DNA from: Trichococcus shcherbakoviae
GTDB lineage: Bacteria; Bacillota; Bacilli; Lactobacillales; Aerococcaceae
Direction of reading: 5' to 3'
Assembly: GCF_963666195.1 (NCBI RefSeq)
Contig: NZ_OY762653.1
Coordinates: forward strand, 2,220,501 to 2,284,500
Length of the DNA stretch: 64,000 nucleotides
The position numbers and the translations under genes were made by a program. Numbering within the stretch: the stretch's first letter is position 1; each line of letters starts with the position of its first letter. The notes under the pieces are model-generated. The model was given only the letters and a program-made list of their open reading frames with translations. It was not told the DNA's origin and ran no database searches. This document shows positions 5,118-25,441 of this stretch, one piece after another.

Positions 5118-5717
5118 ATGATCAAAAATAACAAACGCCAGTACAAGTTTTTCCTCATCATGACCATGTTTTTGTTTATCTTTTCGGGCTGCGGTTCATC
5201 GAGCGACGAAACTGACTCATCTTCAGATCCGGAAGCGATCAGGGAGAGCCAAATCAGCGAACTGGAAAGCAGTGATCTGATCGCGAATGTGGATGCGTAT
5301 ACGGCTATCCAAGGCGTGCTAGCGGAATCAGCAGCTCCGACGCCAGCCAAAGTGTTCATCATCGAAAACGATGAATCCGTTGAGGAAGGGGCCGGAGAAA
5401 AGTACGTGTATTCACCGCACTATCTCGATTTGCCGGAAGAATTGCAGGCCAAGTCGGACGCCGAGATGAACGTGCTGGTGAGGCTTCGCAGCTATTACAT
5501 GGAGACGGGAACCTATTCAAATGAAGGGATCGCTTATACGCGCTACGTCCAAATAACCATCCTGGACAGGGCTGCCGGCACCATCATCCATGAGGAAACA
5601 ATGATCGGATCAGCTCCTTTCAGCATCAGTGAAGATCAATCAGCCGGTTATGGCTATGTGGCGGAATATCAGGTTTTGGATACAATCTTGTCATTTTTCG
5701 GGTATACGGAAGAATGA
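5118..5717 (+). CDS. secreted lipoprotein of unknown function
   Basis: The N-terminus has basic residues, a hydrophobic stretch and a lipobox ending FSGC (Cys near residue 27), followed by a Ser/Asp/Glu-rich linker. The mature protein would be lipid-anchored on the outer face of the membrane. The rest (about 150 residues) is acidic with several predicted beta strands; I do not recognise a named family. CAAGGAGGG seven bases before ATG supports the start. It appears monocistronic between its own extended -10 promoter and the DUF2703 gene. Confidence 0.8.
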   Translation: MIKNNKRQYKFFLIMTMFLFIFSGCGSSSDETDSSSDPEAIRESQISELESSDLIANVDAYTAIQGVLAESAAPTPAKVFIIENDESVEEGAGEKYVYSPHYLDLPEELQAKSDAEMNVLVRLRSYYMETGTYSNEGIAYTRYVQITILDRAAGTIIHEETMIGSAPFSISEDQSAGYGYVAEYQVLDTILSFFGYTEE

Positions 5718-5800
5718 AGATTTACATCGCGACTTATATCAATTCCGATCATAGGCAGAGTCAATTAATCGGGCCGTTCTCATGAAAGTGGAGGGAAATT

Positions 5801-6331
5801 ATGAGTAATAAAAAAGATGAATGTTCTTGCGGGGGTGATTGCTGCGCACAAAAACAAGAAAAAAAGAAAATTGACATCGATTTCTTGTATTTGGATTTAA
5901 ATACATGCAAAAGGTGTCAGGGGGCTGAAAGTAATTTGGATCGGGCCACAAATGAAGTTTCGGCAGTTTTGACATCCGCTGGCTATGGAGTGAGCGTAAA
6001 TAAAGTAAATATCTCATCACCTGAGTTGGCAATCAAATATGAATTTCTCAGTTCGCCAACGATAAGAATCAACGGTAATGACATCTCCTTGGATGTTACA
6101 GAAACTTCTTGCAAGGACTGCGGAGATATTTGCGGAGATTCTGTAGATTGCAGATCCTGGATATATGAAGGTATTGAACATCCTGAACCACCAAAAGAAA
6201 TGCTTGTGAATGCAATTCTGAAGGAAGTCTATGGAATGCATTCAGAATCTCCGAAATCCAAAAAGGAGTATGTATTGCCGGATAACCTAAGAGCATTCTT
6301 CACTGGGTCTGAAGCAAAGAAAGAGGAATGA
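5801..6331 (+). CDS. DUF2703 domain protein, cysteine-rich
   Basis: The 176-residue protein starts with a Cys cluster (CSCGGDCCAQ) and then a DUF2703 domain: DFLYLDLNTCKRCQG carries a CxxC at a thioredoxin-like active-site position, and further on TETSCKDCGDICGDSVDCR gives another set of Cys. SPTIRINGNDI resembles the cis-Pro loop of thioredoxin folds. This points to redox or metal-thiol chemistry in the cytoplasm; DUF2703 proteins have no settled function. GGAGGG lies upstream of the ATG. No metal resistance genes are adjacent. Confidence 0.75.
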   Translation: MSNKKDECSCGGDCCAQKQEKKKIDIDFLYLDLNTCKRCQGAESNLDRATNEVSAVLTSAGYGVSVNKVNISSPELAIKYEFLSSPTIRINGNDISLDVTETSCKDCGDICGDSVDCRSWIYEGIEHPEPPKEMLVNAILKEVYGMHSESPKSKKEYVLPDNLRAFFTGSEAKKEE

Positions 6332-6346
6332 GAAAAGCGGAGAACT

Positions 6347-6421
6347 ATGCCAAAAGTTACCATAAGTGGGGAAGCAAAGATGATTGATCAGGATGGATTA
6401 GCTTTATCTTCAATTTTGTAG
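6347..6421 (+). CDS. possible 24-residue peptide or gene remnant
   Basis: A short frame (MPKVTISGEAKMIDQDGL and six more residues) begins seven bases after a GGAG and ends in TAG. The start of the sequence looks like a natural protein N-terminus rather than random, so it may be the head of a truncated gene. There is no further support. Confidence 0.2.
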   Translation: MPKVTISGEAKMIDQDGLALSSIL

Positions 6422-6590: not shown

Positions 6591-7013
6591 ATGAAAGATG
6601 AAAATTGCGCCTATTGCATGGAAGGCGAAATGGTGTTGGCTTTCGGCTACCCTTGCTGTGAATTGCCTTACAGTAAAGTCTACGTTTTTAAAGAACAAAG
6701 CCACAAAGGCCGTGTGATTGTTGCCTATAAAGACCACGTGAGCGAATTGGTGAACATCACGGATGAGGAGCGCAACGGTTACTTCGCGGATATCGCCACA
6801 GTTGCGAACGCATTGCACAAAGCCTTCAGCCCTGAAAAAGTAAACTACGGCGCTTACGGCGATACCGGCAAACACCTGCACTTCCACTTGGTGCCAAAAT
6901 ACAAAGACGATGCCTTCGAATGGGGCTCGACATTCGACATGAACCCAGGCCGTGTGACCTTGACGGACGATGCGTACGAAGCATTAGCTGAAGAAATCCG
7001 CATCAATCTATAA
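6591..7013 (+). CDS. HIT family protein
   Basis: A 140-residue histidine-triad nucleotide-binding/hydrolase protein. The triad is KHLHFHLVPKY (HxHxH), and CAYCMEG near the N-terminus is typical of members with a zinc-binding CxxC. HIT enzymes cleave nucleoside phosphoramidates or dinucleotide polyphosphates in the cytoplasm; the exact substrate is not readable. The start at 6591 follows AGGAGG (6576-6581) by 9 bases; a TTG at 6588 is a close alternative, while the ATG at 6555 overlaps the -10 box and can be dismissed. Single-gene unit, closed by a terminator. Confidence 0.9.
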   Translation: MKDENCAYCMEGEMVLAFGYPCCELPYSKVYVFKEQSHKGRVIVAYKDHVSELVNITDEERNGYFADIATVANALHKAFSPEKVNYGAYGDTGKHLHFHLVPKYKDDAFEWGSTFDMNPGRVTLTDDAYEALAEEIRINL

Positions 7014-7039
7014 GGAAATGTAAAAATTCTCTTTCTAAG

Positions 7040-7071
7040 AAGCTGATTCCAAAAACGGAATCAGCTTTTTT
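7040..7071 (+). terminator. rho-independent terminator
   Basis: AGCTGATTCC and GGAATCAGCT form a perfect stem with loop AAAAAC and a T tail after the HIT gene. Confidence 0.9.
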
Positions 7072-7080
7072 GCGCGGACT

Positions 7081-7288
7081 CGTCGACTGTTGAGGGCAGG
7101 ATATTTGCGGAATAGCCGACAAGCGCTTCAGGCGTCGACTGTTGCGGAAAAAGTGAATGCGGAACAGTCAACATAAGCTGCGGCCGTCGACTATTGTCGG
7201 AAAAATGAAGGACGAACAGTCAACGGGTGCTCACTTCGTCGGCTGATCTCTAGGGAGCGGATGTGGAACAGCCGACAAGAGGTATAGA
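7081..7288. repeat. four tandem 52-bp inverted-repeat units
   Basis: Units begin at 7081, 7133, 7185 and 7237, exactly 52 bases apart. Each starts with CGTCGACTGTT or a variant (CGTCGGCTGAT in the fourth) and carries about 20 bases later the complement GGAACAGTCAAC or GGAACAGCCGAC, so each unit can fold into a hairpin. The spacer within and between arms is poorly conserved, while arms and period are kept. A fifth partial arm (AACAGCCGACAGAACG, 7298-7313) is out of register. No open frame runs through it, and the array is too short and too palindromic for CRISPR. Confidence 0.85.
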
Positions 7289-7289
7289 A

Positions 7290-7335
7290 AACGCATAAAC
7301 AGCCGACAGAACGCCCCATCGGCCGTTTGTGCGTT
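7290..7335. repeat. imperfect 17-bp inverted repeat ending the 52-bp array
   Basis: AACGCATAAACAGCCGA (7290-7306) pairs with TCGGCCGTTTGTGCGTT (7319-7335) with two mismatches. It borrows the last arm of the array as part of its own stem. No T run follows on the + strand. Confidence 0.6.
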
Positions 7336-7436
7336 TCAGCATTTTTTCTGCATACTGTACTGTTTGTTCCGCTCAAAAAGGGCACCGTTTCAGTTTGATT
7401 TGATTCGTAAAATTAGTAGGAGTCGGAGCGATGTTC

Positions 7437-7442
7437 TATAAT
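7437..7442 (+). promoter_or_regulatory. -10 box of the photolyase gene
   Basis: TATAAT within GGAGCGATGTTCTATAAT. Nearly the same stretch (GGAGCGGATGTTCTATAAT) precedes the gene at 25442, which suggests a shared promoter type. No standard -35 is visible. Confidence 0.5.
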
Positions 7443-7481
7443 AAGAATAACAACAAACGCACACAAATTGGGGGAAACCGG

Positions 7482-8852
7482 ATGATACTGGAAGAAAGAA
7501 TCAAGCAACTGAACGCTAAAAATACAGCGATGGAGCGACCCTATGTCGTCTATTGGATGCAGAGCTCGCAGCGGGCGGAGTACAACCATGCTTTGGAATA
7601 CGCGATCCGCCAGGCAAACAGGCTCGAGAAGCCGCTGGTCGTTTACTTCGGGATTACGGACGGTTTTCCGGAAGCCAATGAGCGCCACTATGCATTCATG
7701 CTGGAAGGGCTGAAGGAAACGAAGGCCGCCTTGGAGCAACGCGGCATCCAAATGCTGATCCGGAAAATATCGCCGGAACAAGGAGCATTGGAAATTTCCG
7801 GATTGGCGGCCCTGTTGGTGGTCGACCGCGGTTATCTCCGGATCGAGCGGCAATGGCGCGCTACCTTGGCCGAGGGTGCTGAATGTGCCGTCGTTCAGAT
7901 TGAAAGCAATGTCGTTGTTCCGGTCGAACTGGCTTCTCCGAAAGAGGAGTATTCCGCCGCGACCCTGCGCTCCAAGCTGAAGAAAATCCTGCCGCATTGT
8001 TTGGCGCCATTGGAGGAGACCGTCTGCCAACATCCATCCGTAGCAGCGGAGCTTCCATTCGAGGCCTATGACGTTTCCGATACCGAAAAGGCCTTGGCCG
8101 GCTTGGCTATCGACCGTAGTGTCCCGCGCGTTTCCGATTATATCGGCGGAACCACGGTGGCCAAACTCTGGTTGGAGGATTTCATCGAGAATAGACTGGC
8201 CGGGTACAGCGAACGCAAGAATCGTCCCGGCGAGTCCTTCACCTCAAATCTGAGTCCATATCTCCATTTCGGCCAGATTTCACCGCTCTATATCTACCGC
8301 AGACTGATGGGGATGGACAGCGAAAGTCAGCAAAGTTTCCTCGAGGAACTTGTTGTCAGAAGAGAATTGGCCGTCAATTTCGTTTACTACAATGAACAGT
8401 ACGATTCCTATGCAGCTGTTCCGGATTGGGCCAAGAAGACACTGGACAAGCACTTGGCGGATGAACGCGAATATCTGTATTCTGTGGAGGAATTGGAAGC
8501 GGCCAAGACCCACGACGACTATTGGAACGCCGCGCAGCTGGAGATGAACCTGACCGGTAAAATGCATGGGTACATGCGGATGTACTGGGCCAAGAAAATT
8601 CTTGAGTGGAGCAGCACGCCGGAGGAAGCCTATCGAAAAGCCATTTATCTGAACAATAAGTACCTGTTGGACGGCCGCGATCCGAACGGGTTTGCCGGAG
8701 TGAGCTGGTGCTTCGGCAAGCATGACCGGCCGTGGGGGGAACGTGCCATCTTCGGCAATGTCCGGTTCATGAATGACAAAGGCCTGAAGCGCAAGTTCGA
8801 TATGCAACTGTATCTGGAACAGGTTGCGGAACGGGCACGCAAACGCAACTAA
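7482..8852 (+). CDS. phrB: class II CPD photolyase
   Basis: A 456-residue deoxyribodipyrimidine photolyase that repairs UV-made cyclobutane pyrimidine dimers with blue light and FAD. The class II signature is clear: WNAAQLEMNLTGKMHGYMR followed by MYWAKKILEW, and DPNGFAGVSWCFGKHDRPWGERA with KRKFD near the C-terminus. The N-terminal half is the alpha/beta antenna domain (RPYVVYWMQSSQRAEYN), the C-terminal half the helical FAD domain. I start at 7482, eight bases after GGGGGAAA; the ATG at 7431 overlaps the promoter -10 box. The next gene begins 15 bases downstream with its own AAGGAGG, and a heliorhodopsin gene follows, so the three are likely co-expressed. Confidence 0.95.
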   Translation: MILEERIKQLNAKNTAMERPYVVYWMQSSQRAEYNHALEYAIRQANRLEKPLVVYFGITDGFPEANERHYAFMLEGLKETKAALEQRGIQMLIRKISPEQGALEISGLAALLVVDRGYLRIERQWRATLAEGAECAVVQIESNVVVPVELASPKEEYSAATLRSKLKKILPHCLAPLEETVCQHPSVAAELPFEAYDVSDTEKALAGLAIDRSVPRVSDYIGGTTVAKLWLEDFIENRLAGYSERKNRPGESFTSNLSPYLHFGQISPLYIYRRLMGMDSESQQSFLEELVVRRELAVNFVYYNEQYDSYAAVPDWAKKTLDKHLADEREYLYSVEELEAAKTHDDYWNAAQLEMNLTGKMHGYMRMYWAKKILEWSSTPEEAYRKAIYLNNKYLLDGRDPNGFAGVSWCFGKHDRPWGERAIFGNVRFMNDKGLKRKFDMQLYLEQVAERARKRN

Positions 8853-8867
8853 AAGGAGGCGGAACGG

Positions 8868-9497
8868 ATGGCGAGAAACGGCAAAAAGGCAGAACCCTTG
8901 CCTATAATCCTTTTGGTTCTTTTCGTTATAGCGTACATTATTTCGGCTATCCGTCCATTGGATCGGCTGGCTTGGATAGGTCAGATGACGCCAGCAGTTC
9001 TGTTGGTATTATTGCTGGTCGTGACTTACCGGAAGTTCCGTTTCAGCACTTTCGTCTATGTGATGGCTTTTCTGCATGCCTTGTTGTTGCTGTACGGCGC
9101 GCACTACACTTACTCCCAGAATCCGCTGTTCAATCAATGGAAAGAGCAGTTTGGTTGGGAGCGCAATTACTTCGACCGGGTGGGGCACTTTGCCCAAGGC
9201 TTCGTACCGGCTTTTTTGGCCAAGGAGTTTTTGTTGCGGGGCGGCTACGTCAAGAAAGGCAAACTGCTGATGCTTATCGTTATTCTGTCCTGCCTCGGCT
9301 TCAGCGCAGCCTACGAACTGAGTGAATTCGCGGTCGTTAAAATTATGGATGTTCCCGCCGACACCGTGATGGGGACACAGGGAGACGCCTTCGACAGCCT
9401 CTGGGATATGATTTGGGCCTTGATCGGTGCGAGCCTGGCGGTGTTCGTGTTCGGCCCGTTCCAAGACAGCCAAATAGAACAGATGGGGGATGGTTAA
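8868..9497 (+). CDS. DUF2238 (YjdF-like) membrane protein
   Basis: A 209-residue polytopic membrane protein with about five or six hydrophobic helices. The stretch NYFDRVGHFAQGFVPA, the central YELSEF and the GTQGDAFDSLWDM segment are the conserved polar marks of the DUF2238/YjdF family. The family has no proven function; buried His, Glu and Asp hint at metal or proton handling. It lies between the photolyase and the heliorhodopsin genes, 15 bases after the former with AAGGAGG before ATG, so it is almost surely translated from the photolyase mRNA. That placement makes it a candidate partner in the light response. Confidence 0.85.
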   Translation: MARNGKKAEPLPIILLVLFVIAYIISAIRPLDRLAWIGQMTPAVLLVLLLVVTYRKFRFSTFVYVMAFLHALLLLYGAHYTYSQNPLFNQWKEQFGWERNYFDRVGHFAQGFVPAFLAKEFLLRGGYVKKGKLLMLIVILSCLGFSAAYELSEFAVVKIMDVPADTVMGTQGDAFDSLWDMIWALIGASLAVFVFGPFQDSQIEQMGDG

Positions 9498-9590
9498 AGG
9501 CATTCTGATTGAAGAACAGTTTGATTCAACGAATGAGAACGGTCAATTGGCATTATTTTCCAGTCATTTTAGAAAGGTAGGTATATCATC

Positions 9591-10382
9591 ATGAAAGAGA
9601 TCACGACAGAAAAACTACGGCGCTTCAATCTGATCATGGGTGGACTCCACCTGATCCAAGCAGTCGCAATGCTGTTTTTGGCAACAAATGTCATCCAGAA
9701 AATCGGTGAGTTCAGTCCTGAAATCAGCCAATTCTACTTGGCCTTCAATCCTGAAACGCGCTCGTTGGAGACTGCCTCGCGAGTTCTTTTTGAATTACCA
9801 TTTGGAGTTATGGTCGCTTCGTTCTTGTTCATTTCAGCCATCGCGCATGCCTTGGTTTCCATTCCGAAAAAGCTTAATGAAATCTATAATGCTGATTTGG
9901 CGAAGGGCATCAATAAATTCCGCTGGTTCGAGTATTCGCTCAGCTCGTCAATCATGATTGTCCTGATTGCGACGCTGTTCGGCATCTACGATATCGCTTC
10001 GCTGATTCTGATCTTCATCGTCAACGCCACCATGAATTTTTTCGGGCTTGTAATGGAACAGTTGAATGTAGGCCGCTCAAAAGACAACATTGAGTGGGGA
10101 CCGTTCATTTGGGGCTCGATTGCCGGTGTTGCGCCATGGATCGCTATTTTGCTGTACATGTTCGGGACCGGTAATTTCGGCGAAGTGCCTTGGTTTGTCT
10201 GGGCAATCGTCGGTACTTATTTCGTTGCTTTCAACACGTTCCCGATCAACATGATTTTGCAGTACAAAAAAGTCGGGAAATGGGCGGACTACCTCTACGG
10301 GGAGCGGGTCTACATCGTGCTCAGTCTGGTTGCGAAATCGATTCTTGCCTGGCTTGTGCTTTTCGGAGCGATGCAGCCGTAA
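9591..10382 (+). CDS. heliorhodopsin
   Basis: A 263-residue seven-helix retinal protein of the heliorhodopsin family, which sits in the membrane with inverted topology (N-terminus inside) and acts as a slow-photocycle sensor rather than a pump. Key residues fit: retinal Schiff-base Lys249 in the family SxxxK motif (SLVAK, Ser245/Lys249), counterion Glu114 in RWFEYSLSSS, and His20 and His86 at positions like the two conserved His of described members. The FNTFPINMILQY segment before helix 7 is also typical. AAGGTAGG precedes ATG. It lies 93 bases after the DUF2238 gene and on the same strand as the photolyase. No retinal or carotenoid synthesis gene is in the window, so the chromophore source is open. 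Confidence 0.93.
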   Translation: MKEITTEKLRRFNLIMGGLHLIQAVAMLFLATNVIQKIGEFSPEISQFYLAFNPETRSLETASRVLFELPFGVMVASFLFISAIAHALVSIPKKLNEIYNADLAKGINKFRWFEYSLSSSIMIVLIATLFGIYDIASLILIFIVNATMNFFGLVMEQLNVGRSKDNIEWGPFIWGSIAGVAPWIAILLYMFGTGNFGEVPWFVWAIVGTYFVAFNTFPINMILQYKKVGKWADYLYGERVYIVLSLVAKSILAWLVLFGAMQP

Positions 10383-10523
10383 TTTTGGTAGGCTTCAGGC
10401 GCTGTCATTTACAAAAACAATACAGGATTTTTTGATACGATTTACAATGACGGTGTATATTGGATGTGTGGAGGAAATGTAACTTGTTGCTGCTTTGCTT
10501 ATTTTTGAATGACATGCTTCAGC

Positions 10524-10582
10524 CGGACAGGTTGGGCGTCCACCAGAAAGCTTCTGATGGATGCCCAACCTGTCCGCTTTTT
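10524..10582 (+). terminator. large rho-independent terminator after heliorhodopsin
   Basis: CGGACAGGTTGGGC (10524-10537) and GCCCAACCTGTCCG (10563-10576) are perfect complements followed by TTTTT. It lies 140 bases after the heliorhodopsin stop and probably closes that unit. Confidence 0.8.
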
Positions 10583-10677
10583 GCGTCGTCAGCCAAGAAT
10601 GCCATTATTGGCAATCGCCGGCGACAAGGACTACAATGATTTTGAGGAAAAAGGAATTAAAGTGAGGAGGAAATCAG

Positions 10678-10926
10678 ATGAAAGAACTGCAGCAAATTCC
10701 CGGCATCGGTCCGAAGATGGCGGCAACACTGGTCTCATTGGGCATAAATACAGTCGCTGACCTGCGCGACAAGAATCCGCAGGAACTTTATGAGCGTTTG
10801 AACAGGATAACCGGGCAGCGACAAGATCCCTGCGTATTGTACACTTTCCGCTGCGCCGTCTATTATGCGACCGAACCGAATCCGGATCCGGAAAAATTGA
10901 AGTGGTGGAACTGGAAAAATGGATAG
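10678..10926 (+). CDS. helix-hairpin-helix protein, Cdd1/pathogenicity-locus family
   Basis: An 82-residue protein built around one helix-hairpin-helix motif (LQQIPGIGPKMAATLVSLGI), which normally binds DNA backbone without sequence preference. The C-terminal CVLYTFRCAVYYA and WWNW ending match the small Cdd1-type family found in many bacteria, function unknown, often near DNA-repair or stress genes. AGGAGG sits 7 bases before ATG. It follows the heliorhodopsin unit but is separated from it by a strong terminator. Confidence 0.8.
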   Translation: MKELQQIPGIGPKMAATLVSLGINTVADLRDKNPQELYERLNRITGQRQDPCVLYTFRCAVYYATEPNPDPEKLKWWNWKNG

Positions 10927-10954
10927 GTCAGCCAAACCGTCTTCTTTACTATTT

Positions 10955-10973
10955 ATACCTATAGGGGTATAAT
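10955..10973 (+). promoter_or_regulatory. -10 box overlapping a CsoR/CstR-like half-dyad
   Basis: ATACC-TATA-GGGGTAT (10955-10970) resembles the TACCCC-TATA-GGGGTA operator of the CsoR/CstR family, with the left half two bases short, and it runs into TATAAT (10968-10973). CsoR-family proteins sense copper, persulfide or other electrophiles. No such regulator gene is in the window, so the link is inference. Confidence 0.35.
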
Positions 10974-11020
10974 GGTTTTTAACAAATCTGGTGAAGCCCT
11001 ACAGAGTAAAGGAGATAACA

Positions 11021-11614
11021 ATGGCGCAGGAATTCTACAAGAAAATATACTCGGTGCGGGAATTTTATACGATTTTGTATGAAGGGGTCCGCACAATGAA
11101 ATACATGATCAAGGCCAAAAAGAAAAAAGAATTAAGTCCGGAATTTATCGAAAGGATCATGTTGGGGGTGACGGAAGTCAATGGCTGTGAAGTTTGTTCC
11201 TATGCCCACACGAAAATGGCGCTCGAGCAGGGGATGGCTGCGGAAGAAATCCAGCAATTGTTGGCGGGGTCTGTTGACGAAATCTCTGTTGAGGAAATGC
11301 CGGCGTACCTTTTCGCCCAGCATTATGCGGACAGAAGAGGGTATCCGACCGAAGAATCCTGGGATCGGATTGTTTCGCTTTATGGGGAAGACAAGGCTAA
11401 AGGAATTTTGGGTGCCATTCGGGCCATAATGGTCGGCAATGCGCATGGGATCGCATTCAGTGCTTTCTTGAGCCGTTTGAAAGGCAAAGCTGTCAAAAAG
11501 AGCAGTCTGTTGTATGAAATCACAATGATGCTGAGCATCATCGTCTATCTGCCGCTGACCTTGATCCATGCTCTAATCGACGGCCTGTTCAAGAAACCTG
11601 TCATCAGTTTCTGA
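11021..11614 (+). CDS. carboxymuconolactone decarboxylase/AhpD-like protein
   Basis: A 197-residue member of the AhpD-like superfamily. The motif EVNGCEVCSYAH (NGCxxCxxxH) holds the CxxC pair and the proton-relay His used by alkylhydroperoxidases, so a thiol-based peroxide or disulfide reaction is likely; the family label decarboxylase should not be taken literally. The start at 11021 follows AAAGGAGATAACA; a GTG at 10991 in frame is less well placed. The C-terminal 30 residues are hydrophobic (YEITMMLSIIVYLPLTLIHA), suggesting membrane contact. The promoter overlaps a CsoR/CstR-like half-site. Confidence 0.85.
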   Translation: MAQEFYKKIYSVREFYTILYEGVRTMKYMIKAKKKKELSPEFIERIMLGVTEVNGCEVCSYAHTKMALEQGMAAEEIQQLLAGSVDEISVEEMPAYLFAQHYADRRGYPTEESWDRIVSLYGEDKAKGILGAIRAIMVGNAHGIAFSAFLSRLKGKAVKKSSLLYEITMMLSIIVYLPLTLIHALIDGLFKKPVISF

Positions 11615-11659
11615 GGATGCACTTGAACTAAAATCATTCTGTTTGTGGATAACGAAAAA

Positions 11660-11706
11660 GATAAGCTGTGGAAAACCATTACTAATGGCTTTTCCACAGC
11701 TTATCT
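11660..11706. terminator. bidirectional terminator between convergent genes
   Basis: GATAAGCTGTGGAAAA and TTTTCCACAGCTTATC form a long stem with an AT-rich top, placed between the AhpD-like gene (+) and nadC (-). Confidence 0.85.
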
Positions 11707-11731
11707 GCGTTTAAATGGGTATAACTTTCCG

Positions 11732-12568
11732 TCAGACCCGTTCCAGGTTCTTCAACGACAGATCGAGGATCGCGGAAGAGTGGGTCAGGGCTCCTGATGA
11801 AAGGTAATCCACTCCGGTATCGCGCAAGGCAGCGATGTTTTCAGCGGTTAGGTTTCCGGAGCATTCCACCAAGGCGCACCCGTCAATCAAACGGACGGCT
11901 TCCTTCATATCCGCCGGGGTCATATTGTCCAGCATGATGATGTCGGCTCTCGCTTCGAGGGCCTCTTTGACCATATCCAAGTTTTCCACTTCGACTTCGA
12001 TCTTATGCACAAAAGAGGCATATTCCCGCGCAGCAGCAACAGCCTGTTTGATGCCGCCCGCCGCAGCGATGTGGTTATCCTTCAGCATGACGCCGTCGGA
12101 TAGGCTGAAACGGTGGTTGTGACCGCCGCCGACTTTTACGGCATACTTCTCGAAAATTCGGTTGTTCGGTGTCGTCTTGCGAGTGTCTAGCAGCGTGATG
12201 CCGCTCCCCTCCAGCAAGTTGACAATCTTGCGGGTATGCGTGGCGATGCCGCTCATGCGTTGGAGATAATTCAGGGCGGTGCGTTCGCCGGACAGGATGA
12301 CGCGGATGTCACCGATCACCTCGGCCAACAAATCTCCCGATTTGACGGCATCACCGTCCTGACAATGGAAAAATACTTCGATCGTATCATCAAGGAGAGC
12401 GAAGGTCCTGGCGAAGACATCCAGGCCCGCGATGATGCCGTCCTGTTTGCACAACAGCTCGGCTTTGCCTTTCGTATAGCCTGTGAGGATGGCGTTGATT
12501 GAGATATCCTCAGTGGGGATGTCTTCCTGCAGTGCCGCCAAAATCAGGCGATCCCTATTACTTTGCAT
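11732..12568 (-). CDS. nadC: nicotinate-nucleotide pyrophosphorylase (carboxylating)
   Basis: Quinolinate phosphoribosyltransferase, which converts quinolinate and PRPP to nicotinate mononucleotide, last step of the de novo NAD branch. The 278 residues show the family marks LSGERTALNYLQRMSGIATHT (shown in part: GERTALNYLQRMSGIAT), LDTRKTTP, KVGGGHNHRFSLSDGVMLKDNH (part: GGGHNHRFSLSD, KDNH) and EVEVEN. A longer frame to 12799 exists, but the start at 12568 has GAGGAGG just upstream inside the end of nadB and gives normal length. It overlaps nadB by 11 bases, so the two are coupled. Controlled with nadA and nadB from the NiaR-type promoter. Confidence 0.93.
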   Translation of the reverse strand: MQSNRDRLILAALQEDIPTEDISINAILTGYTKGKAELLCKQDGIIAGLDVFARTFALLDDTIEVFFHCQDGDAVKSGDLLAEVIGDIRVILSGERTALNYLQRMSGIATHTRKIVNLLEGSGITLLDTRKTTPNNRIFEKYAVKVGGGHNHRFSLSDGVMLKDNHIAAAGGIKQAVAAAREYASFVHKIEVEVENLDMVKEALEARADIIMLDNMTPADMKEAVRLIDGCALVECSGNLTAENIAALRDTGVDYLSSGALTHSSAILDLSLKNLERV

Positions 12569-13838
12569 GGGCTTCCTCCTCGATTCCGATTTCTTCCAAT
12601 AGTCTTCTGCGTGCTTCCGCCAAGCCATCCGTGACGGAGCGGGCATCCGGTTCGGGGAAAGGATAAGGAAGTGCGCACTGGAATGACTCATCGATGGCTT
12701 GGGCGGCGCGCTTGCTGAAAACCAAGCTTTCCAACAGCGAATTGCTCGCCAAACGGTTCTTCCCGTGAACGCCGTTGCAGCTCGTTTCCCCTGCGGCATA
12801 CAAGTTAGCCAGCGAAGTTTTGCTTTGCAGATCCACTTCGATGCCGCCCATGAAGTAATGCTGGGCGGGCACGACCGGGATGTAATCTTCTGTCAAATCA
12901 TAGCCTTCCTGCAGGCAGTGGGCATGGATGCCCGGGAACCTTTCGGCGATCGATCCTTCTACGTGGCCTTTCAAAAGCATACGGACATAAGGCAAGCGGT
13001 CTTTTTCCATTTGGGTGTAGATTGCTTTCGTCAACAGGTCGCGCGGCAACAGTTCATCAGCAAAGCGTTGGCCGTCTTTGCCTACGAGGATGGAGCCTTC
13101 CCCACGCAGCGATTCCGAAATCAGGAAAGCTCTCCCTGGACGTCCGGTATACAACGAAGTGGGGTGGATCTGGACATAATTCATGTCCTTGACGCGGATG
13201 CCGTGCTTCAGCGCAACGGCGATGGCATCGCCTGTCAAATGCGCGAAGTTGGTCGATTTGCTGAACAGCCCGCCGATGCCGCCAGTGGCAAGTAAGGTGG
13301 ACTGTGCATAAACGTTGAATAACTTTCTGGACTGATCGCGGAGCACCGCGCCGTGGCAACGGTCGCCGGCAACCAAAAGATCGACAAGCGTGCTGTTTTC
13401 CAGAATGCTGACATTTTTCCGCTCTTTTATCCTAGCAATCAGTTTGCTGTTGATTTCCTTTCCGGTCATGTCTTTGCAATGCAAAATCCTGGCTCGGGAG
13501 TGGGCGCCTTCTTTGGTGTAGGAGAAGCCATCCCCCTTTTTGTCGAATGCGATGCCCAAACCGATCAAATCGTCGATGATTTCCTGCGAGGACCGGATCA
13601 TGGCTGAAACGGCCGCTTCGTTGTTTTCGTAGTGGCCGGCACGTAAAGTGTCCTCCATGAAAGGCTCGAAATCCGTTTCGTCGCGCTGGACGCAGATGCC
13701 GCCTTGGGCAAGGAAGGAGTCGTTATCTTCCAAAGTACCCTTTGTGACGATTAGAATTTTTTTGTCTTTGCTGATGTTGAGGGCTGCGAAGAGTCCGGCG
13801 ACACCTGTTCCGATGATAAGGACATCATAGTTGCGCAT
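12558..13838 (-). CDS. nadB: L-aspartate oxidase
   Basis: FAD enzyme that oxidises L-aspartate to iminoaspartate, substrate of NadA. The Rossmann FAD motif is VLIIGTGVAGLFAA at the N-terminus; FLAQGGICV, GGIGGLFSKSTN and the VPAQHYFMGGIEVD and AAGETSCNGVHGKNRLASNS segments are typical of the succinate dehydrogenase/aspartate oxidase family. At 426 residues it lacks most of the C-terminal helical domain found in longer (about 530-residue) forms, which is common in Bacillota. It overlaps nadA by 14 bases and nadC by 11, so the three form a tight operon. Confidence 0.94.
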   Translation of the reverse strand: MRNYDVLIIGTGVAGLFAALNISKDKKILIVTKGTLEDNDSFLAQGGICVQRDETDFEPFMEDTLRAGHYENNEAAVSAMIRSSQEIIDDLIGLGIAFDKKGDGFSYTKEGAHSRARILHCKDMTGKEINSKLIARIKERKNVSILENSTLVDLLVAGDRCHGAVLRDQSRKLFNVYAQSTLLATGGIGGLFSKSTNFAHLTGDAIAVALKHGIRVKDMNYVQIHPTSLYTGRPGRAFLISESLRGEGSILVGKDGQRFADELLPRDLLTKAIYTQMEKDRLPYVRMLLKGHVEGSIAERFPGIHAHCLQEGYDLTEDYIPVVPAQHYFMGGIEVDLQSKTSLANLYAAGETSCNGVHGKNRLASNSLLESLVFSKRAAQAIDESFQCALPYPFPEPDARSVTDGLAEARRRLLEEIGIEEEAHAK

Positions 13839-14754
13839 AGGTCTTCACCTCGGCCAATGCCAGCATACGTTCCAAAGGCTGTAAACCTTTTTGGCGCAGC
13901 ACTTCATCCATTTCCACAGCAGGTTCGAAAGTTTCCAGAGCATAGATGATTTTCTCGACCGTGTTTAGTTTCATGTCGGGACAGACCTGACCTACGGAAG
14001 GGGCATGGAAGCTTTTGCCCGGCGACCGTTTTTCCATCTCATGGATGACACCGATTTCCGTGCAGATGATGAAATCCTGGGATGGGCTCTTTTCGGTATA
14101 GGCAACGAGGTCCGATGTGCTGCCGACGAAGTCCGCCAAAACAAGGATTTCCTCCTTGCATTCCGGATGCGCCAGAATTTCGGCTTGCGGAAAGTCGCGT
14201 TTCATCTTCAGGACATCGACAACGCGGATGCTGGTATGGATCGGGCAGTAGCCGTCATTGAAGAGGAACGTTTTCTCGGGAAGCTGATGCGAAATGTATC
14301 TGCCCAGGTGCTCGTCGGGAATGAAATAGATATAGCGGTTGGGAAGGGCGGCGATGACGTTTTTCGCATTGGATGACGTCACGCAGACATCGGCGTGCGC
14401 CTTGATTTCAGCTGTGGAGTTGATGTAGCAGACGACAGCCACGTCTTCGTAAGTTTCGCGGATTTTCTGTATGTCGCGGATTTTGACCATGTGGGCCATC
14501 GGACAATCCGCTTTCAGGTCGGGCATCAGGACGACTTTCTCCGGATTCAGCATCTTCGCGCTTTCGCCCATGAAGGCGACGCCGCAGAAAACGATCACTT
14601 TTTCCGTGACCTGTGCTGCAATTTTGCTCAAATAGTACGAATCCCCGATAAAGTCTGCGATATCTTGAACGGCTCCAGGAACGTAGTAGTGTGCGAGAAT
14701 GACGGCATCTTTTTCTGCTTTCAGTTGCAATATTCTTTCCGTAAGTTCATCCAT
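13825..14754 (-). CDS. nadA: quinolinate synthase
   Basis: [4Fe-4S] enzyme condensing iminoaspartate and dihydroxyacetone phosphate to quinolinate. The 309 residues contain the three cluster cysteines in FCGVAFMGESA, GYCPIHTSI or the nearby VCVTSSNA region, and VCPDMKLNT, plus AHYYVPGAVQDIADFIGDS at the N-terminus. The exact middle ligand needs an alignment. First gene of nadABC; the start follows AGGGGTCG. The upstream promoter overlaps a NiaR-type operator, so expression should fall when niacin is plentiful. Confidence 0.94.
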   Translation of the reverse strand: MDELTERILQLKAEKDAVILAHYYVPGAVQDIADFIGDSYYLSKIAAQVTEKVIVFCGVAFMGESAKMLNPEKVVLMPDLKADCPMAHMVKIRDIQKIRETYEDVAVVCYINSTAEIKAHADVCVTSSNAKNVIAALPNRYIYFIPDEHLGRYISHQLPEKTFLFNDGYCPIHTSIRVVDVLKMKRDFPQAEILAHPECKEEILVLADFVGSTSDLVAYTEKSPSQDFIICTEIGVIHEMEKRSPGKSFHAPSVGQVCPDMKLNTVEKIIYALETFEPAVEMDEVLRQKGLQPLERMLALAEVKTYAQL

Positions 14755-25319: not shown

Positions 25320-25360
25320 ACCGGCAAACAATTGCTGCGGGTATGTGAAAAGAGGAGCGG

Positions 25361-25372
25361 ATGTTCTATAAT
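25361..25372 (+). promoter_or_regulatory. -10 region shared in sequence with the photolyase promoter
   Basis: ATGTTCTATAAT (TATAAT at 25367-25372) preceded by GGAGCGG. The photolyase promoter at 7431-7442 has the identical ATGTTCTATAAT preceded by GGAGCG, and both continue with GAAT and ACAAA-like bases. Confidence 0.45.
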
Positions 25373-25441
25373 GGGAATGCAAAACAAAACGGTTATTCCG
25401 CTGAGCGGTGGACCGGTATTTTTGGAGGGAACCAATTAATC

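Follow-up and report, generated by a model that had tools for sequence, protein, structure and literature searches.

A photolyase–DUF2238–heliorhodopsin gene cluster in Trichococcus shcherbakoviae and its likely role in light-dependent DNA repair

The 64,000-nucleotide stretch of the Trichococcus shcherbakoviae genome analyzed in this study (the window) harbors, within 3 kb, three intact genes on the + strand that encode a class II CPD photolyase, a DUF2238 membrane protein and a heliorhodopsin, flanked by a conserved promoter element upstream and a conserved hairpin downstream (Table 1). The cluster, as described in the initial annotation of this DNA, is confirmed, and the interpretation given there, of a light-tuned UV-repair unit in which DUF2238 could connect receptor and repair enzyme, is partly supported as a whole. 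The cluster as such is already known from Trichococcus, DUF2238 included (PMC9769723, in its available text), and we think it rather probable that the window holds that cluster in a close relative of T. flocculiformis, with a heliorhodopsin that boosts the photolyase, DUF2238 as an independent enzyme, and imported retinal.

The preferred explanation can be laid out in steps: (i) green light would be absorbed by retinal-loaded heliorhodopsin, the retinal being imported from outside the cell; (ii) the cytoplasmic loops of heliorhodopsin, carrying E97, R162 and K227, would bind the class II photolyase; (iii) heliorhodopsin would increase the repair of cyclobutane dimers and allow it in green light in addition to blue; and (iv) DUF2238 would work on its own, as a membrane enzyme whose substrates are lipid head groups at the outer face, and would share the cluster and the light/UV setting without bridging heliorhodopsin and photolyase. 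Binding, the gain in repair and green-light repair have been demonstrated both in vitro and in E. coli for the orthologues from T. flocculiformis, according to the accessible part of PMC9769723, and the same steps would hold for the window copy, to judge from its 97 to 98% identity and intact contact residues.

Gene order and transcription signals

Table 1. Features of the cluster (positions refer to the window)
Feature	Positions	Strand	Evidence
Promoter element GATGTTCTATAATA, -10 box TATAAT at 7437-7442	7430-7443	+	Present in 12/12 clusters
Class II CPD photolyase, 456 aa	7482-8852	+	PF00875 E=2.6e-22; TIGR00591 E=2.1e-158
Ribosome-binding site of DUF2238, AAGGAGG	8853-8859	+	Read directly from sequence
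DUF2238 membrane protein, 209 aa, predicted Wok-type Lipocone	8868-9497	+	PF09997 E=1.3e-44
Heliorhodopsin, 263 aa, E97/R162/K227 intact	9591-10382	+	PF18761 E=1.2e-99
Conserved hairpin followed by T-run	10524-10576	+	13/13 genomes; -58.6 kcal/mol, z -6.8 for 10466-10592

The order photolyase–DUF2238–heliorhodopsin is kept in 12 of the 13 Trichococcus genomes, and chance is thereby excluded as the source of the gene order; in T. palustris, the photolyase gene lies on another contig and DUF2238 about 1 kb from heliorhodopsin. The gaps of 15 bases between photolyase and DUF2238 and of 93 bases between DUF2238 and heliorhodopsin were found as annotated, together with the AAGGAGG motif. The ATG at which the photolyase reading frame starts is also the one at which the published forward primer begins (PMC9769723, available portion).

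The annotated promoter stands as far as the TATAAT -10 box is concerned, which begins at the annotated start and is found in all clusters, but a canonical -35 is absent and no promoter is listed there by the site scan for promoters and terminators, which in total found no more sites than in shuffled sequences. The 14-mer carries one change in two of the 12 clusters (T. patagoniensis and genome G012), and the block holding it starts with AAAATTAG/AAAAATAG. No LexA-type operator was seen at the -10 box on inspection by eye. The annotated terminator is likewise borne out as a strong hairpin preceding a T-run in every genome, although the simple site scan does not list it. In the alignment of the 13 genomes, 99% of 312 cells are paired and three changes are two-sided. 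The hairpin is probably the terminator of the cluster; alternatively, it could terminate a short RNA transcribed on its own, since a promoter-like site (10432-10461, scan) lies between heliorhodopsin and the hairpin. An Rfam search of positions 7000-11100 gave six matches, every one below the gathering score. An RNA model (R1) run against 295 genomes matched 11, strongly in the four Trichococcus only; the matches in the other seven (E of 5e-5 to 7e-4) were taken as generic hairpins.

It is unlikely, in our estimation, that heliorhodopsin is transcribed apart from photolyase and DUF2238, in which case the three genes would not form one regulatory unit. Such an arrangement is suggested by four of the 12 clusters, where 1.24 to 1.57 kb with DUF6448 and signal-peptidase genes separates DUF2238 from heliorhodopsin, and by a TATAAT just 5' of heliorhodopsin, noted by eye in T. 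patagoniensis, T. palustris and the relative L081. The window itself argues otherwise, as the scan, no better than on shuffles, found the 93-base gap free of both promoter-like and terminator-like sites; on the + strand inside DUF2238 it listed one weak promoter-like site (8985-9012) and one weak terminator-like site (8990-9007).

Heliorhodopsin, photolyase and their co-occurrence

The heliorhodopsin is matched over its full length by PF18761 (333 bits, cut-off 26.7) and NF038020 (302 bits, cut-off 100), matches the solved heliorhodopsin 6is6 in phmmer (E=9.4e-55) and is 97.7% identical to that of T. flocculiformis DSM 2094. The annotated residues K249, E114, H20 and H86, which we take to be the Schiff-base lysine, the Glu counter-ion and the conserved His pair, are present and the same in 32/32 aligned rows, an alignment from which L071 and L079 (in-frame stop) and G215 (a 36-position fragment) were left out. 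The photolyase is 96.7% identical to that of T. flocculiformis DSM 2094; it scores 528.4 bits against TIGR00591 (phr2), below the cut-off of 550.05, with residues 3-447 on profile positions 4-452 of 453, and its assignment to class II rests, besides this match, on the characterized 97% identical orthologue.

In the available text of PMC9769723, the T. flocculiformis heliorhodopsin binds the photolyase with a KD of about 22 uM, makes repair about 3-fold stronger and lets it proceed in green light too; R162Q or K227Q abolishes binding, and the repair gain and green-light effect are lost in both. The same text describes bound retinal and a photocycle for this orthologue. All three published contact residues (E97, R162 and K227) are intact in the window, and K227 also occurs in 14 of the 19 heliorhodopsin rows outside the cluster.

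Beyond the cluster, any photolyase was found in 23 of 24 heliorhodopsin carriers vs 61 of 271 other genomes (295 Lactobacillales genomes; Fisher p=4.6e-13), and counted by genus in 8 of 9 vs 20 of 66 (p=0.0012); all eight genomes with a class II photolyase, defined as E<=1e-30 to the window protein, carry heliorhodopsin. DUF2238 was above the cut-off in six genomes of the same set, all with heliorhodopsin and none without, and co-occurrence of the two apart from Trichococcus comes down to two genomes (p=0.0045). L086 and L087 were left out of all counts. The refutation test proposed in the initial annotation, whether DUF2238 stands beside heliorhodopsin in relatives, gave a divided answer: it does inside Trichococcus, but not at the loci examined outside. 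Neither DUF2238 nor a class II photolyase was near any of 20 heliorhodopsin loci from other genera, and neither heliorhodopsin nor a class II photolyase was near DUF2238 at any of 69 loci outside Trichococcus (up to 8 kb a side). Among those 69, the widest neighbor cluster (response-regulator-like, by eye) was scattered over seven, and a shared theme was rejected; other recurrent neighbors were, by eye, lineage-bound housekeeping genes. No relatives of DUF2238 were found on viral contigs.

No phytoene-synthase gene and no BCD-type retinal gene was found above cut-off in any of the 13 Trichococcus genomes. The phytoene-synthase search was positive in 7 of 14 control genomes and the BCD search in 0 of 14, so the sensitivity of the latter is without a positive control. 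Sub-threshold hits occurred in five genomes (carotenoid) and two (BCD), and one of each was opened: by eye, the carotenoid hit looked like a prenyl-diphosphate synthase and the BCD hit like an ABC permease. We infer that retinal is taken up from outside; a term search of the main text of PMC9769723 returned no discussion of the cell's source of retinal.

Several observations weigh against the heliorhodopsin-boosted photolyase as the best explanation: (i) E97 and R162 occur together in 3 of the 12 clusters (3/13 Trichococcus), the other nine having A97 and H162, though R162Q abolishes binding (PMC9769723, as available); (ii) retinal was added to the expression culture in the published work, and the genus lacks the above-threshold retinal genes just described; (iii) the T. 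palustris photolyase is unlinked, and the 20 other heliorhodopsin loci have neither partner; and (iv) co-occurrence may mirror sunlit habitats, and DUF2238 has no PDB match with E<=0.001 and a weak VanZ match in only 1 of 42 members.

The alternative that draws on these points is one of common habitat, in which light-exposed Lactobacillales keep both genes, these became neighbors in Trichococcus, heliorhodopsin has another role and the in vitro binding is unphysiological; we hold it to be rather improbable. It would account for co-occurrence that persists without adjacency, for class II photolyase adjacency confined to one genus among the Lactobacillales sampled, for the variable contact residues within Trichococcus, and for the weak KD-level binding measured with retinal supplied. 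Against it stand the published repair gain and green-light effect, both lost in the R162Q and K227Q mutants, and the 15-base photolyase–DUF2238 gap, kept in 11 of the 12 clusters (27 bases in T. ilyis). Adjacency moreover recurs elsewhere, since heliorhodopsin-containing photolyase operons are stated for 12 genera (PMC9769723) and photolyase lies beside Znf-heliorhodopsins (PMC8612252), each in its available text.

DUF2238 as a predicted lipid enzyme

DUF2238 matches PF09997 with 151.9 bits (cut-off 26.4), and its AlphaFold2 model has a mean pLDDT of 91.1. Across 42 proteins (the window together with 41 of 80 loci, picked to cover the diversity; L171, with a stop, and 38 others left out), H107, E150, E153, D173, D176, D180 and G187 are invariant, and the model helices 102-124, 132-160 and 176-193 carry H107, E150, E153, D176/D180 and G187. 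The Wok site pattern (His in H2, Glu in H3 with a second acidic residue close to the end of that helix, Asp and Gly in H4) fits in 42/42, with D176 or D180 as the site Asp in our own reading. Judged by sequence and model, DUF2238 thus appears to show the hallmarks of Wok, a family of the Lipocone superfamily defined in PMC12419801, which it resembles in two extra N-terminal helices that precede the core (10-27 and 33-53), an H3-H4 handle (linker 161-175), the H/E/D site and a variable tail. In that work Pfam DUF2238 covers Wok in part, lipid head-group activity of the family is a prediction, the contexts named are cardiolipin-type and carotenoid gene neighborhoods, and the words rhodopsin and photolyase are absent from the main text. 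DUF2238 probably acts on lipids.

Foldseek of the model against the PDB gave no match with E<=0.001. Kinship with VanZ was rejected, as the single Pfam match was weak (E=0.13); Transgly_assoc appeared as a weak recurrent Pfam match in 11 of the 42 members (best 2.8e-4).

By the positive-inside rule, the cytoplasmic loops of DUF2238 measure about seven residues, with tails of 9 and 16, and its invariant polar residues would for the most part face outside, away from photolyase; an outward-facing active site, as this topology suggests, argues against a bridge to the cytoplasmic photolyase. That DUF2238 physically couples heliorhodopsin to photolyase, as first proposed, is most improbable: its place between both genes in 12 genomes, its proximity to heliorhodopsin in T. 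palustris where photolyase is not nearby, its restriction, above cut-off, to heliorhodopsin genomes among the 295 Lactobacillales and the invariant E120 and R124, placed where one helix reaches the cytoplasmic side, would fit, but heliorhodopsin and photolyase interact directly in assays without DUF2238 (PMC9769723, accessible part), the 69 outside loci lack both partners, and the genomes G065 and G077 have DUF2238 far from heliorhodopsin, on a different contig in the former and some 530 kb away in the latter.

Implications and comparison with known systems

The role of heliorhodopsin is still disputed, and that of Trichococcus is among the few with a tested partner. The natural A97/H162 orthologues of nine genomes, T. 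pasteurii and T. collinsii among them, can probe the generality of the published interface, and DUF2238 is now assayable as a predicted lipid enzyme. With no phytoene-synthase or BCD gene above cut-off in the genus, retinal supply may be a switch that an experimenter can control. If habitat can be controlled for, co-occurrence in unlinked genomes would suggest that the connection extends beyond a single operon. As a long shot, the cluster might be a three-part light/UV module in which the light state of heliorhodopsin, or the common promoter, would set both DNA repair inside the cell and outer-leaflet lipid head-group remodeling by DUF2238, with a retinal-auxotrophic cell using community retinal as the on-switch and photolyase and heliorhodopsin as evolutionary partners across Lactobacillales even when unlinked.

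The closest known system is the TfHeR-TfPHR cluster of T. flocculiformis, which in the available text of PMC9769723 has the same genes, order and genus, with no difference of kind, and whose heliorhodopsin and photolyase are 97 to 98% identical to those of the window. The heliorhodopsin–photolyase link, mentioned in the initial annotation as possibly from this genus, is therefore a published Trichococcus result, and its light-tuned repair unit gains support from that orthologue work and from the genome-wide co-occurrence. The study named DUF2238, and its tests covered heliorhodopsin and photolyase. DUF2238 is not the new element it was taken for, because PMC9769723 and PMC11109279, in the parts available, both list it in these operons; in the latter, which sorts heliorhodopsin operons into classes, the groups with photolyase and with DUF2238 are described as lying in the same operon, the partner tested being an ABC transporter. 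A survey of monoderm gene contexts (PMC8612252), whose main text does not contain the terms Trichococcus or Carnobacter, places photolyase and other light-protection genes, in its accessible portion, at the flanks of Znf-heliorhodopsins. In the actinobacterial heliorhodopsin–glutamine synthetase pair (PMC9529153, available text), heliorhodopsin also binds and regulates the enzyme encoded beside it, with another enzyme and in another phylum.

The cluster, its published counterpart and its boundaries

The initial annotation recognized three same-strand genes, and this reading was borne out: all three open reading frames are intact, the gaps between them in the window are 15 bases (photolyase-DUF2238) and 93 bases (DUF2238-heliorhodopsin), and Pfam and NCBIfam support the family assignments, except that the window photolyase, with a score of 528.4, stays below the cut-off of the class II model TIGR00591 (550.05). 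The heliorhodopsin matches solved heliorhodopsins in phmmer with E values down to 9.4e-55. The photolyase ORF as listed opens at 7431; we place the start at 7482, since the primer published for the orthologue begins at the latter ATG and the former falls inside the promoter element.

Features of the cluster, its surroundings and related loci
Feature	Sequence	Positions	Strand	Remarks
DUF2703 gene	window	5801-6331		5' of cluster
GTCGACTGTTG-like and GGAACAGTCAAC/GGAACAGCCGAC-like words	window	7060-7360		gap 5' of photolyase promoter
Photolyase	window	7482-8852	+	intact ORF
DUF2238	window	8868-9497	+	intact ORF, AAGGAGG ahead
Heliorhodopsin	window	9591-10382	+	intact ORF
Promoter-like site	window	10432-10461		consensus scan
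Hairpin	window	10524-10576		followed by T's
Second promoter element	window	25360-25373		exact GATGTTCTATAATR
Solitary heliorhodopsin	L228, Lactococcus petauri	5592-6368		on plasmid
Second heliorhodopsin	L027, T. patagoniensis	6920-7720		distant
Heliorhodopsin-photolyase row	L074, genome G237	6974-14134		one strand

The observation was correct and well read, but of an already published system. The photolyase-DUF2238-heliorhodopsin cluster has been described in three Trichococcus species (PMC9769723), and the claim that DUF2238 is a new element fails, since the protein already appears in the operons of that paper, where the operon figure legend names it and it is set aside because its function is unknown, and of PMC11109279, where photolyase and DUF2238 are among ten frequent heliorhodopsin neighbours and both are placed in the same operon. 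Interest now attaches to the gene in the middle, to the retinal pathway that is missing, to an interface that varies and to a co-occurrence reaching beyond the cluster.

The initial annotation had the genes run from a promoter to a large terminator. The element GATGTTCTATAATA lies upstream of photolyase in all 12 Trichococcus clusters (with one change in two of these), and the hairpin downstream of heliorhodopsin is present once per genome in 13/13 Trichococcus genomes, its sequence GGGCGTCCACCAGAA...TTCTGATGGATGCCC being near-identical in 12 and 86% identical in T. palustris, where it lies 3' of DUF2238 with just three T's behind. No canonical -35 was seen at the promoter element, the consensus promoter scan has no entry there, and the hairpin is not among the terminator calls of the window scan. 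Given this last result and the promoter-like site between heliorhodopsin and hairpin, the hairpin may not be part of the cluster transcript; it may also be more than a terminator. A second exact copy of the promoter element precedes a short gene without a Pfam match, and the two elements possibly share a regulator. When up to two mismatches to GATGTTCTATAATR are allowed, at least two matches occur in 8 of 100 shuffles. By eye, the gap 5' of the promoter holds several GTCGACTGTTG-like and GGAACAGTCAAC/GGAACAGCCGAC-like words. The DUF2703 gene recurs in 1 of 12 other Trichococcus heliorhodopsin loci, some of which are too short to show whether it is there.

Gene order and co-occurrence

The placing of DUF2238 next to heliorhodopsin, on which the initial annotation built, held within the genus but not at the loci examined outside it. 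Heliorhodopsin occurs in 13/13 Trichococcus genomes, and photolyase, DUF2238 and heliorhodopsin follow in the same order on one strand in 12 of them. In eight of these clusters the genes directly follow one another, 76-112 bases separating DUF2238 from heliorhodopsin; the other four carry between these genes an insert of 1.24-1.57 kb with DUF6448 and signal-peptidase genes (profile-tested in T. collinsii, assigned by sequence likeness in the remaining three), to which T. alkaliphilus adds Cdd1. T. palustris has DUF2238 at a distance of about 1 kb from heliorhodopsin, a gene on the opposite strand separating the two, and its photolyase is on a separate contig. Among 295 Lactobacillales genomes, 24 carry heliorhodopsin, 20 of them outside Trichococcus; a class-wide sample of 299 genomes gave two above cut-off, one being the window's own genome. 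Within about 7 kb on each side, where contigs allow, neither DUF2238 nor class II photolyase was found at any of 20 outside loci (19 of the 20 from Lactobacillales and one from the class-wide sample). Conversely, of 86 DUF2238 loci found in the genome collection, 80 were kept, eleven from Trichococcus, and the other 69 showed neither heliorhodopsin nor class II photolyase within the flanking DNA examined. Within these samples the three-gene adjacency is limited to Trichococcus; further genera do carry heliorhodopsin-photolyase operons (PMC9769723, which counts heliorhodopsin-containing photolyase operons in 12 genera). The contig MUZD01000004.1, titled Sedimentibacter sp. SX930, bears the Trichococcus cluster with 91-94% protein identity, and its title looks wrong.

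Co-occurrence extends beyond adjacency. Any photolyase (PF00875) was found in 84/295 Lactobacillales genomes: 23 of 24 with heliorhodopsin versus 61 of the 271 without it (Fisher p = 4.6e-13, phylogeny being handled only via the genus count, 8/9 genera with heliorhodopsin versus 20/66 without, p = 0.0012). Class II photolyase (hits to the window protein at E<=1e-30) is present in eight genomes and DUF2238 in six (leaving out two more matches below cut-off), all of them heliorhodopsin carriers. With Trichococcus removed, p is 6e-11 for any photolyase, 1.7e-5 for class II (four genomes) and 0.0045 for DUF2238 (two genomes). Sunlit habitats common to the carriers are a serious alternative explanation of this co-occurrence. 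In genome G065, 18 kb separate class II photolyase from heliorhodopsin; in G237, an FAD_binding_7-type photolyase lies 5 kb downstream of heliorhodopsin and ends a one-strand row that also holds two glycosyltransferase genes and what by eye resembles a permease gene. Other heliorhodopsin genes lie on a mobilizable plasmid of 10.5 kb in Lactococcus petauri (59.7% identical, with an IS6 transposase gene nearby) and in T. patagoniensis (36% identical, with ORFs that look like transposases by eye not far away).

DUF2238 as a probable Wok-type protein

DUF2238 has been assigned to the Wok family of the Lipocone superfamily, predicted lipid head-group membrane enzymes with the site toward the outer leaflet, for which a cardiolipin synthase function or a place in carotenoid-linked pathways has been suggested (PMC12419801). 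In the AlphaFold2 model (mean pLDDT, 91.1), two extra helices at the N terminus precede a four-helix core, and an H3-H4 handle is present. A PDB fold search with it gave no match at E<=0.001, so that the superfamily placement rests on PMC12419801 and the motif: H107, E150, E153, D173, D176, D180 and G187 are invariant in 42/42 aligned sequences (the window and 41 of the 80 loci). By the positive-inside rule, loops 54-60 and 125-131 (about 7 residues each) and tails of 9 and 16 residues are cytoplasmic; this topology directs the majority of invariant polar residues outward, although helix 102-124 carries E120 and R124 at its cytoplasmic end. Among the three genes, DUF2238 has the highest dN in 9 of 11 window-to-genome pairs, well under dS in all pairs except T. 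flocculiformis, with too few changes to tell.

Retinal supply and the heliorhodopsin-photolyase interface

Thirteen Trichococcus genomes, 11 of them at least 90% complete, were searched for retinal synthesis. None reached the cut-off for squalene/phytoene synthase (PF00494) or for BCD (PF15461), the latter search matching 0/14 control genomes and thus having no positive control. Below cut-off, BCD hits occurred in two genomes and squalene/phytoene synthase hits in five; one of each was inspected by eye, the BCD hit resembling an ABC permease and the synthase hit a prenyl-diphosphate synthase. Trichococcus heliorhodopsin probably needs external retinal, and rhodopsin-bearing bacteria without known retinal genes are already on record (PMC7734400).

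For the orthologues, PMC9769723 reports direct binding of heliorhodopsin to photolyase at the cytoplasmic face (KD, 22 +/- 15 uM), loss of binding in R162Q and K227Q heliorhodopsin, and roughly 3-fold better repair with heliorhodopsin, green light also supporting repair. By extension, a mechanism can be proposed for the window: (i) its heliorhodopsin would bind photolyase and support green-light repair in the same way; (ii) retinal would come from outside; and (iii) DUF2238 would be a separate, outward-facing lipid enzyme, of predicted activity, sharing expression with the cluster. Across 32 aligned heliorhodopsins, the published contact residues E97 and R162 are found in the window, in T. flocculiformis DSM 2094 and in a further Trichococcus carrier (G012). 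The other nine clusters carry A97/H162, and T. palustris carries D97/K162. K227 is present in 13/13 Trichococcus sequences of this heliorhodopsin and 14/19 others. The window heliorhodopsin can make the published contacts, but E97/R162/K227 are no signature of the cluster; either His162 is functional too, or else the interaction is peculiar to the T. flocculiformis group.
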